A stretch of DNA of 55,579 nucleotides from Aquirufa aurantiipilula (lineage in GTDB: Bacteria; Bacteroidota; Bacteroidia; Cytophagales; Spirosomataceae), in NCBI RefSeq assembly GCF_019923745.1, contig NZ_JAANOG010000013.1:1-55579 (forward strand), given 5' to 3'. The position numbers were made by a program, and so were the translations under genes. This document shows, piece by piece, positions 46,179-54,868 of the stretch (its first letter is position 1; each line of letters begins with the position of its first letter). Below the pieces are notes generated by a model, which saw only the letters and a list, made by a program, of their open reading frames with translations, did not search any database and had not been told where the DNA came from.

Positions 46179-46883
46179 TTATTCGTTAGTTTCAGGGAAT
46201 TCATTGTAGAAATACCCTGCGAATTTCCAGATTTCTTGGATTTCAGTGCCTAGGATAGGATAGGGGTCGTATAGTTTGTTGGTCGACTTCAGAATCAATA
46301 CATTTTTCTCTTGTAAGTGGTTGATGACTTTTTTCAAAACCACCCCGTCTTCGCGGGTCACGACAATACAGATGGTGCCATCTTTGATGTCTTTCCAATC
46401 TTCTACATATTCGGCAAATACCAAAGAGCCGGATTGTAAGGGCAACATAGAATCTCCTTTGATGGGGAATACACGGTATTTACGGTCTTTGGTTAAAAAT
46501 GGAACTTGAAAAGTCGGTAATTCTTTGATAAAATCCAGGTCGTCATAAGAGGTGGTATATCCTGCCAAAGCCTTCACCGGTACCATCTCAATGTTCTCTT
46601 CATTATCGTCGTTAACCGTGGTGGCTAAAATACGTAGCTTAGGTTTATTGGATAGGCCAGGGATTCTTTTGGATAAATCTTCCTTGAGTAATTCGTCTAC
46701 TTCCACCTCGAAAAAGTTGGCCAATAAGATCAAATCCGCATATTTGGGTTCTGCTCTTCCCGACTCATAAGAGCCCAAAGTAGGTTTTTTTATTTGTAAG
46801 ATTTCAGCCAGTTTTTCTTGGGAAGTTTTCTCCGACATTTTGCTGCGTAAGAATCGTAAATTCTGGCTAAAAAAAGTGCTCAT
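46179..46883 (-). CDS. S24 (LexA/CI-like) self-cleaving repressor with XRE domain
   Basis: The 234-residue regulator has an XRE-type helix-turn-helix (about 1-66: SQEKLAEILQIKKPTLGSYESGRAEP) and a C-terminal S24 peptidase domain. The expected autoproteolysis site Ala107-Gly108 occurs in KALAGY, the nucleophile is Ser145 in IKGDSMLPL and the general base is Lys184 in GVVLKKV. All three elements are intact, so cleavage after RecA activation is likely. It is divergent from a Y-family polymerase and DnaE-type polymerase, with palindromes between. It is therefore the probable SOS-like repressor of that cassette. The DNA-binding part is of the CI type and not LexA. Confidence 0.92.
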   Translation of the reverse strand: MSTFFSQNLRFLRSKMSEKTSQEKLAEILQIKKPTLGSYESGRAEPKYADLILLANFFEVEVDELLKEDLSKRIPGLSNKPKLRILATTVNDDNEENIEMVPVKALAGYTTSYDDLDFIKELPTFQVPFLTKDRKYRVFPIKGDSMLPLQSGSLVFAEYVEDWKDIKDGTICIVVTREDGVVLKKVINHLQEKNVLILKSTNKLYDPYPILGTEIQEIWKFAGYFYNEFPETNE

Positions 46884-46918
46884 GTATGTTGCTTATTAAT
46901 GTAAAATGAATAAAATTC

Positions 46919-46936
46919 GTATCCATTTATGGATAC
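46919..46936. promoter_or_regulatory. Operator 1: perfect 18-bp palindrome
   Basis: GTATCCATTTATGGATAC is a perfect inverted repeat with two central bases. It lies 36 bp from the repressor start and 56 bp before the polymerase start (46992). It shares the half-site GTATYC with operator 2. Confidence 0.8.
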
Positions 46937-46938
46937 CA

Positions 46939-46957
46939 TTTGTATCGAAATTACAAA
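46939..46957. promoter_or_regulatory. Operator-like inverted repeat between the two palindromes
   Basis: TTTGTA (46939-46944) and TACAAA (46952-46957), spacer 7. It contains the partial half-site GTATCG. The centres of the three sites are about 20 and 18 bp apart, two helical turns, which would suit cooperative dimers. Confidence 0.4.
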
Positions 46958-46958
46958 A

Positions 46959-46973
46959 GGTATTCAGAATACC
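46959..46973. promoter_or_regulatory. Operator 2: perfect 15-bp palindrome
   Basis: GGTATTCAGAATACC has 7-bp arms around one base. The half-site GTATTC matches GTATCC of operator 1. It lies 18 bp before the polymerase ATG. Confidence 0.75.
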
Positions 46974-46991
46974 CAAATATCTATCAATTTT

Positions 46992-48179
46992 ATGCAAGAG
47001 CGTGCCATTGTTCACATGGATTTGGACAGTTTCTTTGTCTCTGTCGAAAGACTACGAGATAGTGCTTTGGTGGGTAAGCCTGTCATTGTTGGGGGCTTAT
47101 CTGATCGAGGTGTCGTGGCGGCCTGCAGTTATGAAACTCGTGCTTTTGGGGTAAGATCTGCTATGCCCATGCGGATGGCCATGCGGCTTTGTCCGGATGC
47201 TATTGTGCTACGAGGCGATCTTGAAGCCTATTCTCAATATTCAGAAGCGGTAACATCTTTGATTATGGAGCGTGCGCCTTTGGTAGAAAAGGCTTCCATT
47301 GATGAGTTTTATTTGGATATGACGGGTATGGAGCGCTTTTTTGGGGCTTATCGTTTTGCCACCGATTTACGTGAACGAATTCAAAAACAAACAGGCTTGC
47401 AGATTTCCTTTGGTTTGTCGGTCAATAAGACCGTATCTAAAGTAGCCACGAATCATGTCAAACCTGCGGGTCAATACCAGGTGTTGGCGGGAGAGGAAAA
47501 GGCTTTTTTGGCACCTATGCCGGTGGGTAAAATCCCGATGATTGGCTCGGTGACGGCTCAGACATTACGGAATATGGGAATTGTTCATGTAGGAACTTTG
47601 AGTCAAATGCCCCTGAAAGTCCTGGAGCGTAGTTTTGGTAAGTCGGGCGTGATGCTTTGGGAGCGCGCTAATGGAATTGATTTACGCCCTGTGGTGCCTT
47701 ATTCAGAACAAAAGTCTTTGTCGAAGGAAATGACTTTTGATCAAGATAGTACGGATGTGGTTTTGTTGAGACGGATATTAGGTTCATTGACGGAGCAGTT
47801 GACCTATGATTTACGGACTTTGGGACAATGTACTTCTTGTGTTACGGTGAAGTTGCGCTATTCCAATTTTGATACGCATACCCGTCAAATCACCTTGCCT
47901 GCTACGGCGAGTGATCATCGCTTGATTCCAGCGGTGGTGGACTTATTTGAAAAGCTCTATGATCGCCGTTTGTTGATACGTTTGATTGGCGTGCGTTTCT
48001 CAAAATTATTACAAGGGCAGGAGCAGTTGAATCTATTTGATGATGGTGCTCGTTTGGCACCTCTCTACCATGCCATGGATGGCTTGAAAAATAGATTTGG
48101 AGAATTCTCTATTGTACGTGCTAGTGGTTTAATGGGTCGCCATGAACGTCGAAATATCTTACCTAAATCAGAAGATTAA
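46992..48179 (+). CDS. dinB: Y-family DNA polymerase (DinB/Pol IV-like)
   Basis: This translesion polymerase has intact catalytic residues: HMDLDSFFVSVE near the start and ASIDEFYLDMT with the Asp-Glu pair. It is therefore an active enzyme, unlike ImuB proteins, which lack them. Helix-hairpin-helix PMIGSVTAQTLRNMGI and a little-finger domain follow. A canonical clamp-binding motif QLNLF occurs at about residues 345-349. Length is 395 residues with ATG 46992; a longer frame from 46929 would translate the operators and encodes no family sequence. The stop overlaps the dnaE-like start (TAATG). Confidence 0.94.
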   Translation: MQERAIVHMDLDSFFVSVERLRDSALVGKPVIVGGLSDRGVVAACSYETRAFGVRSAMPMRMAMRLCPDAIVLRGDLEAYSQYSEAVTSLIMERAPLVEKASIDEFYLDMTGMERFFGAYRFATDLRERIQKQTGLQISFGLSVNKTVSKVATNHVKPAGQYQVLAGEEKAFLAPMPVGKIPMIGSVTAQTLRNMGIVHVGTLSQMPLKVLERSFGKSGVMLWERANGIDLRPVVPYSEQKSLSKEMTFDQDSTDVVLLRRILGSLTEQLTYDLRTLGQCTSCVTVKLRYSNFDTHTRQITLPATASDHRLIPAVVDLFEKLYDRRLLIRLIGVRFSKLLQGQEQLNLFDDGARLAPLYHAMDGLKNRFGEFSIVRASGLMGRHERRNILPKSED

Positions 48180-51097
48180 TGTATCTCAACTGTCATTCCT
48201 ATTATAGCTTACGTTACGGAACGCTGTCGCCAGAGGCTCTGGTGGAGGCTGCTGCTGCGCAGGGTATTAAGGCCTTGGCATTGACTGACATACACCGCAT
48301 ATCGGGAATCTATGATTTTTTTCAGGCTTGTCGAGTGGCCAACATTAAGCCGGTGGTGGGTATGGAGTTTCGGCAGGGAGATGCTTGTTATTATATTTGT
48401 TTGGCTAAAAATGCCTCAGGATTGGCTCAAATCAATGCTTTTGCGAGTCAATATCTATTGTCTTCTGCCCCTTGGCCAGAGAGGCCGCCTAGTTCACCAG
48501 ATGTATGGACCATCTTTCCTTTGGCACGTCGAGAACAAATAAAAAGTTTAGGTCCTCAGGAGCGCTGGGGAGTCAGAGCCAGTGACCGAAACAAATTGTG
48601 GAAAGAGCAGGACTGGGCTTCTTTGGTTTGGTGTCACCCTGTTACTTTTTTGGATAAAAGGGCATTCTCCATGCACCGTTTGTTGCGGGCTATTGACCAC
48701 AATGTCTTATTGAGTAAGTTGCCATTGGAGGCACAAGCCCAGGACGACGAACGTTTGTATAGTCCAGCGGAATTAACGGATTTTTGTGCGGACTTCCCGA
48801 GCTTGCTGGAAGAAGCAGACCGTATCTTGGAGAGTTGTGAATTCTCTTTTGAGTTTAGGTCCTCCAAAAACCGCAAATTATTTAGTGCTAGTCCGGAAGA
48901 CGATCAGGCTTTACTGGCTAAATTGGCCTATGAGGGGATGCTTTATCGTTATCCCCATTCCTCTAGAGAGGCGAAAGAGCGGATCAAAAAAGAACTTCAG
49001 GTGATTCATGACCTTTCTTTTGAGTCCTATTTTTTGATTACTTGGGACATCATTCGCTATGCGCGGTCGAGGGGGTATTTCCATGTAGGGAGGGGAAGTG
49101 GGGCCAATTCCATTGTGGCTTATTGTTTGGGTATTACGGATGTGGATCCCATTGAGCTGGATTTGTATTTTGAGCGTTTCATTAACCCCCACCGAACGAG
49201 TCCTCCTGATTTTGACATTGATTTTTCTTGGGATGAGCGTGATGAGATTATTGATTATATCTTCAAACGATATGGGGCGCAATACGTTTGCCTATTGGCG
49301 ACTTATGTGACTTTTCGGGATCGCTCAATTTACCGAGAACTGGCGAAGGTCTTTGGTTTACCCAAGGCAGAGATTGATGCGTGGATAGCCCCAACGGCCG
49401 AATTGCGGCAGTCGAATTCCCAAATTCATCAATGGATCATTAAATACGGAAATCTATTGATTGATTTCCCCAATTACCTGAGCATTCATGCAGGGGGAAT
49501 ATTGATTTCGGATAGACCATTGTCGGAATATACCGCCTTAGAACCTATGCCCAAGGGTTTTCCTATTTGTCAATTTGATATGTATGTAGCCGAGGAAATC
49601 GGTTTTGCGAAGTTTGATATTTTATCTCAACGAGGTTTGGGGCATATCAAAGAGGCCGTGGAGATTATTCGTCAAAACCGTGGGGTCGACATCGATATAC
49701 ATCGGGTGGCGGATTTTAAGCGGGATGAGCGAATCAAAATCCAGCTAGAAAGTCATGAAACTATGGGCTGTTTTTATGTAGAATCTCCGGCCATGCAGCA
49801 GTTAATCAAGAAGTTACATTGTTCGGATTACCTGACTTTAGTAGCGGCAAGTTCCATCATTCGCCCAGGTGTGGCTAGTTCGGGCATGATGAAGGCCTAC
49901 ATCGAAAGGCATCATGCGCCTCATTCGTATCAGCCTGTCCATCCATTGATGGGGGAGTTGATGCAGGAGACTTATGGCGTGATGGTGTATCAAGAAGATG
50001 TGATTAAAGTGGCACATTATTTTGCTGGTTTGAGCTTGGCGGAGGCGGATGTCTTACGTCGAGGGATGTCGGGTAAATACCGTTCACGAGGAGAGTTTGA
50101 GCGCATTAGGGAGCAGTTTTTTCTGAATTGTGCTGAAAAAGGCTATGAGGAGGCGGTGGCGAAGGAGGTATGGCGACAAATGGAGAGTTTCAGTGGGTAT
50201 TCATTCAGCAAGGCGCATTCGGCTAGTTTTGCGGTAGAGAGCTATCAAAGTTTGTATTTGAAGGCCTATTTTCCTTTGGAATTCATGGTGGCAGTGATTA
50301 ATAATTTTGGTGGTTTTTATCGGACGGAGTTTTATGTGCATGAGGCGCGTAGGTCGGGAGGATGGATAGAGGCGCCTGAGATTAATGAAAGCGAGTATTT
50401 GACACGCTTAGATGGTCAAGTGGTGTATTTGGGTTGGGTACATGTCAAAGGTCTGGAGAAAGGATTGATACGGGAATTGTTGGAAGCCAGAAAGCAGGGC
50501 CCTTTTGTATCTTGGGAGGATTTTGGTCGGCGGGTGAGTTTAGGTTTGGAACAAGCCATCATTCTGATTCGCGTGGGAGCTTTTCGGCGATTAGGAACAG
50601 GAAAAAAGAATTTGATGTGGGAGGCTCATGCTCGTTTTCAGGGGAAAGTGTCCGAGGTGGTGGCTATGGAAATGTTTGAGGATAGTACGGAGATTGGTGT
50701 TTTACCCACCCTGGTACATGAGCCGCTAGAAGATGCTTTTGATGAGTGGGAAATCTTGGGTTTTCCGCTTTGTTCGCCTTTCGACTTATTGGAAGAATGG
50801 CCTGTTACGAGTTTGAATGCACACTTGTTGGCCGATCGAGGCGATATTTTAGGTTATCTGGTAACCTTAAAACCTACCTGGACGAAAAAAGGTGAGCGGA
50901 TGTATTTTGGCTATTTTTTGGATGCGCAAGGTGCCTTTTTTGATACGGTACATTTTCCTTCGGATTTAAAGAAATATACTTTTAAGGGCGGAGGCGTTTA
51001 CTGGATGCAGGGGCAAGTTATGGAGGAATTTGGTCACCGCTCTTTGCGGGTTTTACAGATGCGCAAGCTGGGTTGGAAAGCGGATCCACGGTATTAG
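48179..51097 (+). CDS. dnaE2: Error-prone DnaE-type DNA polymerase III alpha (short, DnaE2/ImuC-like)
   Basis: The 972-residue protein is a C-family polymerase shorter than E. coli DnaE (about 1160). The N-terminal PHP domain is degenerate: NCHSYYSL replaces HxHSxYSL and TDIHRISG replaces TDHG.L.G, so metal-dependent exonuclease activity is doubtful. The palm has GRGSGANSIVAYCLGITDVDP and the catalytic aspartates in PDFDIDFSWDERDE (about residue 343). The fingers have GVMVYQEDVI and VLRRGMSGK, with SFSKAHSASFA. Little follows the helix-hairpin-helix: a short OB-like region remains. Translational coupling with dinB, the SOS-type repressor next to it and size all suggest an inducible mutagenic polymerase. 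The gene is more G-rich than its neighbours by eye. Confidence 0.93.
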   Translation: MYLNCHSYYSLRYGTLSPEALVEAAAAQGIKALALTDIHRISGIYDFFQACRVANIKPVVGMEFRQGDACYYICLAKNASGLAQINAFASQYLLSSAPWPERPPSSPDVWTIFPLARREQIKSLGPQERWGVRASDRNKLWKEQDWASLVWCHPVTFLDKRAFSMHRLLRAIDHNVLLSKLPLEAQAQDDERLYSPAELTDFCADFPSLLEEADRILESCEFSFEFRSSKNRKLFSASPEDDQALLAKLAYEGMLYRYPHSSREAKERIKKELQVIHDLSFESYFLITWDIIRYARSRGYFHVGRGSGANSIVAYCLGITDVDPIELDLYFERFINPHRTSPPDFDIDFSWDERDEIIDYIFKRYGAQYVCLLATYVTFRDRSIYRELAKVFGLPKAEIDAWIAPTAELRQSNSQIHQWIIKYGNLLIDFPNYLSIHAGGILISDRPLSEYTALEPMPKGFPICQFDMYVAEEIGFAKFDILSQRGLGHIKEAVEIIRQNRGVDIDIHRVADFKRDERIKIQLESHETMGCFYVESPAMQQLIKKLHCSDYLTLVAASSIIRPGVASSGMMKAYIERHHAPHSYQPVHPLMGELMQETYGVMVYQEDVIKVAHYFAGLSLAEADVLRRGMSGKYRSRGEFERIREQFFLNCAEKGYEEAVAKEVWRQMESFSGYSFSKAHSASFAVESYQSLYLKAYFPLEFMVAVINNFGGFYRTEFYVHEARRSGGWIEAPEINESEYLTRLDGQVVYLGWVHVKGLEKGLIRELLEARKQGPFVSWEDFGRRVSLGLEQAIILIRVGAFRRLGTGKKNLMWEAHARFQGKVSEVVAMEMFEDSTEIGVLPTLVHEPLEDAFDEWEILGFPLCSPFDLLEEWPVTSLNAHLLADRGDILGYLVTLKPTWTKKGERMYFGYFLDAQGAFFDTVHFPSDLKKYTFKGGGVYWMQGQVMEEFGHRSLRVLQMRKLGWKADPRY

Positions 51098-51146
51098 TTA
51101 GTTATTAGGGATTAGTTATTAGAGTTTAGTTATTAGAGTTTAGGGT
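51098..51146 (+). repeat. Heptamer array A: seven TTAGNNN units after dnaE2
   Basis: TTAG recurs at 51098, 51105, 51112, 51119, 51126, 51133 and 51140, an exact 7-bp period. Units are TTAGTTA, TTAGGGA, TTAGTTA, TTAGAGT, TTAGTTA, TTAGAGT and TTAGGGT. It starts on the base after the dnaE2 stop codon. Confidence 0.9.
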
Positions 51147-51313
51147 ACAAATCGCAAAGTTAGATATATACTCAGAGGCAAAATAGAATGGACCCAATGA
51201 CAAATATGAAATAAAGACATCAATACACTTGACTGAGATCCAAGCATTTTCATTCACTATTCGACATAGCATATGTCAAACAGCGGGGATATTTTCAATT
51301 GCCCTCTAACCCC
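51147..51313. other. Spacer between heptamer arrays A and B
   Basis: These 167 bp hold no frame or tRNA that I can support. The only structured element is a small palindrome GACATA-GCA-TATGTC at 51263-51277. The interval separates two convergent genes with the inverted arrays. Confidence 0.5.
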
Positions 51314-51369
51314 CTAACTCCTAATAACTAATCCCTAAACCCTAATAACTAAACCCTAACTCCTAATAA
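51314..51369 (-). repeat. Heptamer array B: eight inverted TTAGNNN-type units after the SMP-30 gene
   Basis: On the plus strand CTAA recurs every 7 bp from 51314 to 51363 (eight times). Read on the minus strand it gives TTAG-containing heptamers such as TTAGGAG, TTAGGGT and TTAGTTA, starting next to the stop codon of the SMP-30-like gene. Its orientation is opposite to array A, so the two can pair. Confidence 0.9.
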
Positions 51370-51371
51370 CT

Positions 51372-52703: not shown

Positions 52704-53369
52704 TTATGCGAAAAGTTGAGTTTGCTCACCTAAATTTTTCACCTTTTGAGCCTGCATACTAGCGCTGTCAAAAGGCTTGAAAAAGGTTTTAATCTCCTCG
52801 CTAGACATAGGTGCTAACCAATTTCTTTCTTGATCAGCGGAAAGAATTAAGGGCATTCGTTTTTTTGTATTGTGTATCGTTTCCATTAGGTCATTGGCGG
52901 GAGTGGTAATGATGGAAAATGAAGGTTCTAGGTTTTTTGTTCTGGGATTATGCCAAATTGCATAGATTCCAGCCAAAGCGAATGGACCTTTTGTTTTTAG
53001 ATGAATGTGGTATTCAATTTTTTCTTTACCCACATGTTGCCATTCGTAGAATCCATCCACAAGCACGAGACAGCGTTGTTTTAAAATGGATGGTTCAAAG
53101 GATGCTTTCTCAAAAATACTTTCTGATTTAGCGTTTAAGGTATTTTTAGGTAATTCTTTGGCTTGCTCTTCATTGGCCCAGGCTGGAATCAGGCCCCAAG
53201 GAAATAATTGGATGAGTTCTGGTTTGGCTTGTGTAATGATGGGCAAGCCAGCTCGTGTGAAGCCTGATATTTTGCCCTTTTTTGCCAATGATTCTTCGTA
53301 TTTAGCTTGTGCTTTGAACCTAATTTCCAAGGCCTTATTGGAGCTGGTTTGGTCGGTGTAGTAGCACAT
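52704..53369 (-). CDS. HMCES/YedK-family SOS response-associated peptidase
   Basis: SRAP proteins crosslink to abasic sites in single-stranded DNA through Cys2 and protect them. The N-terminus MCYYT leaves Cys2 free after Met removal. Further conserved residues are in FYEWQ (catalytic Glu) and HNTKKRMPLIL (His of the active site), with IIPAWANE and TLNAKSESIFEKASF in between. The protein has 221 residues, standard for bacterial YedK. It lies near the SOS-like cassette, a sensible location for DNA damage tolerance. Heptamer repeats lie upstream of its start. Confidence 0.95.
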   Translation of the reverse strand: MCYYTDQTSSNKALEIRFKAQAKYEESLAKKGKISGFTRAGLPIITQAKPELIQLFPWGLIPAWANEEQAKELPKNTLNAKSESIFEKASFEPSILKQRCLVLVDGFYEWQHVGKEKIEYHIHLKTKGPFALAGIYAIWHNPRTKNLEPSFSIITTPANDLMETIHNTKKRMPLILSADQERNWLAPMSSEEIKTFFKPFDSASMQAQKVKNLGEQTQLFA

Positions 53370-53455: not shown

Positions 53456-54682
53456 TCAATGAACTGTGTCATTGTTTAATAATCTATCTGCGAAGTAAAT
53501 ATTTAATTCGTTTCTAACCGTATTCCAACCAAACATTTTTCCTGACCATTTGGTATTAGCATTGATGGTAGCTAGGTAAATCTGTTTGATAATGGCATCC
53601 TCATTGGAAAATGCCCCCTTAGTTTTGGTTACTTTTCTTACCATCCGATGAAAGCTTTCAATGGGATTTGTCGTGTAGATAATCTTTTTGAGTGTGGCTG
53701 GATACTTGTAAAAATTCGATAGCCTATCCCAGTTATTTCGCCAACTTCGAAAGATTACGGGGTATTTTGCTCCCCATTTTTCTTCTGCTTGATTCAAATA
53801 ATGTAATCCAAGGTCTAATGAATTGGCTTGATATATTTTCTTTAAATCGGCAGTTAGCGCTCTTTGATCCTTCCAGCTCATGTATTTTAAACTATTGCGC
53901 ATTTGATGAACGATACAAAGCTGAACATCCGTATTGGGAAACATATCTTCAATAGCATCTCCAAAACCTTTCAGGTTATCAATACAAGCCACACAGATAT
54001 CATGCACACCTCTAGATTGAAGTTCGTTCAATATTTGACGCCAAAAGGCTGAACTTTCACTATCACCAAAATAGATACCGATCACTTCCTTTTGACCCTC
54101 TAAAGATACAGCAAGTATGGAGTAAATGGTTTTGGTCTTAACTATCCCGTTTTCCCTGACTTTAAAATACATCGCATCCAGCCAGATGACTGGATAAACA
54201 TTCTCTAAAGGCCTATTTTGCCACTCTTTGATCTCGGGGATGATTAGATTTGTAATCGCTGTTAAGGTGCCATCAGAGATGTCTACACCATACATATCAG
54301 ACAAATGTTTCTGTATATCTGAGTAGCTATTGCCCATACCAAACAAGCTGATAATTTGTTTGTCGATATCACTACTAATACTGGTCTGACGCTTTTCTAC
54401 CGTAAGAGGCTCGAAAGTGGCATTTCGGTCTCGTGGTGAGAAGATTTCAAAACCTCCTAAACTACTTTGAACGTTCTTCGAGATACGACCATTTCTACGA
54501 TTCTTTTCGGGTTTACGCGTTTGTTCAAGATGAGAATCTAGCTCTCCCTCAAGGGCGGCTTCTAGAATTTTTTTGATCAAAGGTGTGAATACCCCATCCT
54601 TGCCCGTGAAAGGCTTTTTTTGTTTTAATTGTTCTGCGGCTTGCTTGACAAAGGCCTCAAAATCAAATTTCTCTTTTTCCAT
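53456..54682 (-). CDS. IS256-family (Mutator-type) transposase
   Basis: The 408-residue DDE transposase contains the family landmarks: VIWLDAMYFKVRENG with the first Asp, GVHDICVACIDNLKGFGDAI with the second Asp, LCIVHQMRNSLKY (the C/D-x-H region), and TTNPIESFHRMVRKVTKTKGAFSNEDA with the final Glu. The ATG at 54682 gives MEKEKFDFEAF; an in-frame TTG at 54694 is also possible. The last codons (DTVH) run through the left terminal repeat, and the stop TGA at 53456-53458 lies 8 bp from the element's end. An internal copy of the repeat overlaps its promoter region. Confidence 0.97.
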   Translation of the reverse strand: MEKEKFDFEAFVKQAAEQLKQKKPFTGKDGVFTPLIKKILEAALEGELDSHLEQTRKPEKNRRNGRISKNVQSSLGGFEIFSPRDRNATFEPLTVEKRQTSISSDIDKQIISLFGMGNSYSDIQKHLSDMYGVDISDGTLTAITNLIIPEIKEWQNRPLENVYPVIWLDAMYFKVRENGIVKTKTIYSILAVSLEGQKEVIGIYFGDSESSAFWRQILNELQSRGVHDICVACIDNLKGFGDAIEDMFPNTDVQLCIVHQMRNSLKYMSWKDQRALTADLKKIYQANSLDLGLHYLNQAEEKWGAKYPVIFRSWRNNWDRLSNFYKYPATLKKIIYTTNPIESFHRMVRKVTKTKGAFSNEDAIIKQIYLATINANTKWSGKMFGWNTVRNELNIYFADRLLNNDTVH

Positions 54683-54686
54683 GGAT

Positions 54687-54721
54687 TGTGTCAATTATTA
54701 ATTAAGTTAGTAATTGACACA
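54687..54721. promoter_or_regulatory. Inverted repeat at the transposase start (internal TIR copy)
   Basis: TGTGTCAATTA (54687-54697) and TAATTGACACA (54711-54721) are perfect arms, 13 bp apart. The outer arm belongs to the right terminal repeat; the inner arm overlaps the start of the transposase gene. Transposase binding here could repress its own synthesis. Confidence 0.6.
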
Positions 54722-54746: not shown

Positions 54747-54812
54747 GAAATATATCACTCTTTATTCTTTCATTTTTTAATGTTTCTTTCTATTCATATT
54801 TTTTATTTCACA

Positions 54813-54868
54813 ATTCACCATTAATCATTTACAATTTATCATTCAGCATTTATCATTTGCCATTCTTC
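54813..54868 (+). repeat. Heptamer array D upstream of msrB
   Basis: ATT recurs at 54813, 54820, 54827, 54834, 54841, 54848, 54855 and 54862, an exact 7-bp period over eight units (for example ATTTATC, ATTCAGC, ATTTGCC). It points toward msrB. Array C has the same sense relative to the HMCES gene. Confidence 0.85.

Follow-up and report, generated by a model that had tools for sequence, protein, structure and literature searches.

The question raised by this locus is whether a phage-type repressor lying divergent from two polymerase genes in Aquirufa aurantiipilula controls a mutagenesis cassette apart from the SOS response of Bacteroidota, or whether it belongs to that response. We examined a stretch of 55,579 nucleotides (contig NZ_JAANOG010000013.1, assembly GCF_019923745.1; hereafter the window), in which three genes at 46179-51097 encode a CI-type helix-turn-helix (HTH)/S24 repressor on the minus strand and a Y-family polymerase and a short DnaE on the plus strand. 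The initial annotation had read them as a self-contained, LexA-independent mutasome resembling ImuA-ImuB-DnaE2, and this reading as a whole was partly supported. The cassette is very probably a DNA-damage-inducible translesion system of a kind already described in Bacteroidota. According to published work, such repressors do the job of LexA in this phylum; the arrangement is essentially ordinary, and its only fresh detail is the operator sequence, which is possibly new.

The described gene set is present in the window, and its content, order and overlap were observed directly, as were the residues, conservation and tree placement given below. The parts of the locus are as follows.

46179-46883, minus strand: repressor of 234 amino acids with a CI-type HTH and an S24 autoprotease domain, of the non-canonical LexA type (Pfam, residues, homologue alignment, AF2 model, Foldseek)
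46884-46991, between the divergent genes: promoter region of 108 base pairs (bp), of equal length in 28/28 genus loci
46992-48179, plus strand: active-type Y-family polymerase (DinB/PolY) of 395 amino acids (domains, motifs; start from genus conservation)
48179-51097, plus strand: short DnaE of 972 amino acids, of the Bacteroidota DnaE2 type under the published scheme (polymerase aspartates intact, PHP domain reduced)

We searched 59 genomes, 37 of them from the genus (the window's included). A Y-polymerase match was found in 46/59 genomes and in 31/37 of the genus, and the six genus genomes that gave no match were 73-86% complete. We recovered 30 genus loci (L008-L037). Two of them, L032 and L035, stop short of the repressor; in each of the other 28 the repressor and polymerase genes diverge across a gap of 108 bp, so the arrangement is more than chance. 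DnaE was downstream in 6/6 named genus-level loci scored (L114-L119).

For the phylum, named records were searched with a polymerase alignment, and the best 80 of 577 confirmed stretches together with L040 gave 81 PolY loci. Some of these end close to the gene, and the positive counts are therefore lower bounds: a divergent upstream repressor was present in at least 34 loci (within 400 bp in at least 20), and DnaE2 was downstream in at least 47 and upstream in at least seven. The three-gene set, which the initial annotation had suggested seeking across Bacteroidota, was complete and adjacent in at least 15. Six of these 15 (L114-L119) have a polymerase 86-87% identical to that of the window and so come from the genus or very near it, and nine are from elsewhere, e.g. 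Larkinella soli and Sinomicrobium.

Relatives were also found on plasmids, and the plasmid records matched were all from Bacteroidota (6/6, counting Persicobacter, which we take to belong to this phylum). On pEMTOL01 of Emticicia oligotrophica (NC_018742.1), typed conjugative, SRAP, repressor, dinB and dnaE stand in a row. This cassette shares with that of the window the order of a repressor divergent from dinB-dnaE and a one-base overlap (TGATG in pEMTOL01), with identities of 61% for DnaE, 60% for PolY and 37% for the repressor; it differs in its conjugative-type plasmid setting, in the SRAP gene beside the repressor and in its intergenic sequence. In a Chryseobacterium shandongense plasmid, the gene divergent from dnaE-dinB is annotated 'LexA family transcriptional regulator'. 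A Dyadobacter plasmid pairs a repressor of the same type, again divergently, with ImuA, a Y-family protein and an error-prone DnaE.

The initial annotation had claimed a repressor that keeps all residues for autoproteolysis and has a CI-type rather than a LexA DNA-binding domain, a TAATG overlap between the polymerase genes, an active Y-family polymerase with a QLNLF motif and a short DnaE with a degenerate PHP domain, and each of these points stood. The repressor matched HTH_3 (E 4.9e-10) and Peptidase_S24 (E 1.7e-6) in Pfam, and the predicted scissile bond A107-G108 and the Ser-Lys dyad S145/K184 are all in place. In 29 aligned homologues HTH_3 was matched in 29/29 and Peptidase_S24 in 28/29; Ser145 and Lys184 were invariant, Ala107 was conserved in at least 90% and Gly108 in fewer than 90%. 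The bond position is Ala-Ser in seven Algoriphagus-type repressors (L122, L124, L128, L130, L131, L137, L144), and the aligned bond in L150 is Met-Gly. The LexA DNA-binding domain PF01726, the mark of the separate lexA that had been proposed as a check, was found in 0/59 genomes, the window's own included; the same search matched 10/14 control genomes, four of them archaea, where matches may be spurious. By its domains the repressor is judged to be a CI-type HTH and S24 protein and not a LexA winged-helix protein, and in lacking PF01726 it differs from canonical LexA.

An AF2 model of the repressor (27-row alignment, mean pLDDT 77.4, pTM 0.58; below 50 in the stretch 104-112 around the scissile bond) showed five helices at the N-terminus and, towards the C-terminus, a beta-rich part. 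In a profile search of solved structures the N-terminal part resembled ImmR, PezA, SinR, P22 c2 and DdrO, and only HTH stretches were present among the best 60 of 114 matches. A phmmer search of solved structures with the repressor found no S24 chain, and Foldseek was therefore taken as support for the S24 fold instead; its best matches were LexA and a lambda-186 hybrid repressor. In the modelled protein a CI-like domain of five helices thus appears to precede a C-terminal fold like that of LexA/CI. The repressor tree was poorly resolved (9/32 inner branches starred). No second copy was found in the own genome in a search with the repressor itself. A genome search with PF00717 missed the repressor, so its negatives count for little; the sole S24 match that it listed was the C-terminal end of a protein that by eye is helicase/ATPase-like (L002 250-1929, contig C44).

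The Y-polymerase matched IMS (E 1.6e-46) and IMS_C (E 2.6e-26) in Pfam and was named DNA polymerase IV by NCBIfam (292.5 bits, cut-off 256). Its start is most likely the ATG at 46992 rather than the first ATG of the open frame at 46929, because genus alignments conserve only the former. Numbered from this start, HMDLDSFF begins at residue 8, SIDEF at 102 and QEQLNLF at 343, and the catalytic DxD and SIDE are intact. Among the 81 related polymerases SxDE was present in all 81 and DxD by pattern in 64, the other 17 having DLDTFY by reading. Two further motifs follow the catalytic ones.

48024-48038, plus strand: QLNLF clamp-binding motif, from the sequence, with a Q..[LMI]F-type pattern in 81/81 related polymerases
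48072-48122, plus strand: RecA-NT-like motif AMDGLKNRFGEFSIVRA, by local alignment to the N-terminus of RecA from this genome

Motifs of the QLNLF type bind the sliding clamp. The RecA-NT-like motif aligned to the own RecA N-terminus with a local score of 29, which 35/5000 shuffles equalled or exceeded, and its form was present in 77/81 related polymerases. The genome has one Y-family gene and, elsewhere, one RecA match. In two relatives of the order (L041, L043) the Y-polymerase gene is broken, with one internal stop in genome G050 and in two pieces in genome G058.

The junction between the Y-polymerase and DnaE genes, GATTAATGTATC, contains the TAATG overlap. In DnaE, Pfam found Pol3 alpha, finger and HHH_6, and PHP was matched at residues 3-90 only. 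D344, D346 and D480 align with D401, D403 and D555 of E. coli DnaE, which we take to be the catalytic aspartates. In the first PHP motif, whose canonical residue is His, the window protein has Asn4 where E. coli has Arg. The genome has two DnaE genes, and this one passed the NCBIfam superfamily model TIGR00594 (517.2 bits, cut-off 434.35). In a quick, unrooted tree of 26 proteins, built without the reference sequences of the published DnaE2 authors and with a window row of deviating letter make-up, it grouped with nine other Bacteroidota short DnaE proteins (a 10-row, Bacteroidota-only clade, SH-aLRT 100), the Emticicia plasmid copy being nearest (62% identity). This clade lay apart from 11 DnaE1 rows, from four annotated error-prone DnaE rows, two of which (Agrobacterium, Dyadobacter) adjoin ImuA, and from one long-branched Streptomyces row.

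These features agree with systems in the literature. In Bacteroidetes, CI-type S24 repressors recognize palindromic sites, regulate SOS genes and are mitomycin C inducible (PMC8565304, Sanchez-Osuna et al. 2021). That paper gives CTAA-N5-TTAG and GGA-N5-TCC as the operators of these non-canonical LexA proteins, counts a dinB-dnaE operon among their targets, describes one such repressor in Elizabethkingia that is divergent from an error-prone polymerase and has a diverged operator, and leaves the Cytophagaceae homologues unassignable to either operator class. The window repressor resembles these proteins in its CI-type HTH and S24 domains, its Ala-Gly bond and Ser-Lys dyad, its want of a LexA winged helix and, as in Elizabethkingia, its position divergent from an error-prone polymerase. 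Unlike them, it has neither consensus operator at its promoter, and its target set is seemingly limited to that promoter.

For the polymerases, a Bacteroidetes PolY2 and DnaE2 pair, both apparently active, with a RecA-NT motif and without ImuA, was described in 2019 (PMC6511836), and the DnaE2B-PolY-RecA module of Bacteroidetes, an active PolY and DnaE2 without ImuA that are thought to use RecA, in 2026 (PMC12926913); PHP and thumb are reduced in Bacteroidetes DnaE2 (PMC3919608). The window cassette shares with this module two apparently active polymerases in one operon with RecA-NT-like and clamp motifs, the reduced PHP domain and a single Y-family gene in the genome. No difference from the module as presented in those papers was detected, with membership by the authors' own trees not reproduced. 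Two claims of the initial annotation therefore fell: the cassette is not a LexA-independent alternative to the SOS response of the phylum, since in Bacteroidetes it is repressors of this very class that regulate SOS (PMC8565304), and a set with an active polymerase and without ImuA is not unusual, since the module had already been named (PMC6511836, PMC12926913). The claim that ImuA is missing agreed with 0/59 genomes matched by a Dyadobacter ImuA query, a weak test, as that search had no positive control. We found no paper on the SOS response in Aquirufa.

The divergent promoter holds the candidate operator, whose elements are listed here.

46951-46963, plus strand: TTAC-N5-GTAT element, candidate operator half-sites of predicted function, in 28/28 genus loci
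46959-46973, no strand assigned: perfect palindrome GGTATTC-A-GAATACC (GTATTNNNAATAC), candidate operator of predicted function, in 21/28 genus loci
46946-46977, minus strand: possible repressor promoter, read by eye, with TTTG (46977-46974), a 20-nucleotide spacer holding the palindrome, and TAATTTCG (46953-46946)

The basis for this possible promoter is the Bacteroidetes promoter consensus. Besides the two elements counted above, GTAT-N5-(A/T)TAC was found in 26/28 genus promoters. TTAC-N5-GTAT overlapping GTAT-N5-(A/T)TAC is thus a candidate operator, of possibly new sequence, which was not seen in the literature consulted on these repressors and modules. Another candidate was dropped: the 18-bp palindrome GTATCCATTTATGGATAC (46919-46936), although perfect here, is not conserved in the genus. 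A mis-spelt search pattern, GTATNCNNNGNATAC, gave near-control numbers (3 sites vs 2 in the control) and was replaced by other patterns. Rfam at gathering scores gave no match in the window.

As a control with the published motifs, we scanned 35 upstream regions (220 bp each) of homologous repressors. Exact CTAA-N5-TTAG was found in 6/35: four Chitinophaga loci (L155, L176, L177, L189) have two copies apiece, and single copies are present in L120 and by a second repressor of L183. GGA-N5-TCC was found four times upstream of the Sinomicrobium repressor of L161; its one other match, in L116, falls within the polymerase gene. Published motifs upstream of some homologues tie the set to the published family and do not give the operator of each member.

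The extent of the regulon was examined by searching for further sites. The 3.08-Mb genome has one copy of the perfect palindrome GGTATTNNNAATACC. Allowing one mismatch added 27 sites vs 7 for a reversed control pattern; the nine of these 27 that were examined all lie within long open frames. The 15-mer TTACRAAAGGTATTC is exact once in the own genome, twice in G015 (both in cassette promoters) and once in G032, where the site on contig C56 is coding in appearance and has no repressor or polymerase match; six one-mismatch 15-mer loci examined were likewise all inside long open frames. The two promoters of G015 are on separate contigs (C69, which is L247, and C19), a second copy or an assembly effect, and C69 has a repressor match of 86.6% identity at the contig end. 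Upstream of the SRAP gene of the window, no palindrome at two mismatches or fewer and no TTAC-N5-GTA(A/T) was found.

Several results weigh against the reading of the cassette as a member of the published family. CTAA-N5-TTAG, GGA-N5-TCC and TTAC-N5-GTAA were each found in 0/28 genus promoters, and 27/35 upstream regions of homologous repressors have no exact published motif; published operator letters vary within the family, so missing consensus forms do not exclude membership. Taken by itself, the palindrome does not exceed what chance gives in AT-rich DNA (arms of at least 7 in 150/1000 shuffles, of at least 8 in 47/1000), so the argument for an operator rests on conservation, and much of the 108-bp region is conserved in the genus, not only the candidate operator. 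No upstream repressor was found in the DNA covered at 47/81 PolY loci, and a Runella plasmid has the repressor with no polymerase listed nearby; on plasmids the regulator thus accompanies either mutasome, or none. DnaE scored below every narrower NCBIfam cut-off listed (error-prone model 499.1 vs 939) and in the unrooted tree stood apart from both DnaE1 and other DnaE2, so that it is called DnaE2 here on the strength of the published scheme. We scanned both strands upstream of recA in 23 genus loci (330 bases ending at the conserved YGKG codons; 196 in L079). Apart from one GGA-N5-TCC (L076) there was no candidate or published site, and so no sign of a wide SOS regulon of the normal kind.

Three rival explanations were set against the family reading. 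That the repressor, in the manner of DdrO, responds to something else than RecA filaments, with its S24 residues kept for another reason, is improbable. DdrO is cut by a separate protease, the HTH of the window repressor resembles that of DdrO among solved structures, and the genus recA upstream regions are without sites; against this stand the conserved scissile Ala-Gly and Ser-Lys dyad and the mitomycin C inducibility of genes of related repressors (PMC8565304). Kinship with the ImuA-ImuB-DnaE2-type mutasome is more improbable still, even though both have a Y-family protein and DnaE in one operon under damage control (predicted here), the operon logic is similar and the Dyadobacter plasmid places the same repressor type beside that mutasome. 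The Y-polymerase is of the active DinB kind rather than a dead ImuB, and DnaE belongs to the Bacteroidota-only clade, apart from the four other-type DnaE2 rows of the quick unrooted tree.

The least probable rival is that a decayed prophage or mobile element left the repressor beside the polymerase genes by chance. It could draw on the CI-type DNA-binding domain, on four repressor matches in phage records, none covering 80% of the query, and on an open reading frame at 53456-54694 that by eye is transposase-like. Synteny with an exact 108-bp spacer in 28/28 genus loci and the same pairing in at least 34 of 81 phylum loci count against it, as do the flanking genes scanned, Tex and SRAP (phage genes were not searched for).

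For the damage-inducible translesion system that we favour, we infer operator identity, cleavage, induction and complex formation in A. aurantiipilula; operator binding and mitomycin C induction were shown by others in relatives (PMC8565304). In the undamaged cell a repressor dimer would sit on the palindromic block of the 108-bp promoter, silencing itself and dinB-dnaE2. Once DNA is damaged, RecA filaments would promote autocleavage of the repressor at Ala107-Gly108 by its S24 domain (Ser145/Lys184), and the two divergent transcripts would rise. The Y-polymerase would bind the sliding clamp through QLNLF and RecA through its RecA-NT-like tail, and together with the short DnaE would act as a mutagenic bypass complex without ImuA. 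The description of the cassette as self-contained was half right: cleavage and polymerase function, the latter because of the RecA-NT-like tail, should both continue to depend on host RecA, whose gene lies elsewhere.

The site searches suggest, without proving, that the regulon has contracted to one promoter. It is possible, though doubtful, that the SOS regulon of the genus comprises one bidirectional promoter, which has a diverged operator of its own and controls only the repressor and the two polymerases, and that the cassette may travel as a portable, self-regulated mutagenesis unit, the last because near relatives sit on plasmids.

Beyond the cassette, the DNA just 3' of dnaE2 (51098-51371) holds arrays of units of about 7/14 nucleotides, TTAGTTATTAG and the inverse CCCTAATAACTAA, which form inverted arms flanking a 175-bp stretch; five CCCTAATAACTAA-like copies were counted vs 0.08 expected. 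Another array, with a similar period, is found at 54805-54865 next to the transposase-like open reading frame. The SRAP (SOS-response-associated peptidase) gene at 52704-53369 is 1.6 kb past dnaE2, and SRAP adjoins the repressor on the Emticicia plasmid.

The cassette fits the published Bacteroidota scheme within a group titled Cytophagaceae, whose repressors PMC8565304 leaves unassigned to an operator class, and offers a concrete candidate operator for it. As the plasmid copies show, mobile DNA can carry the regulator together with the polymerases. If the regulon is truly one promoter, the genus would offer a clear example of a regulon reduced to its mutagenic core.

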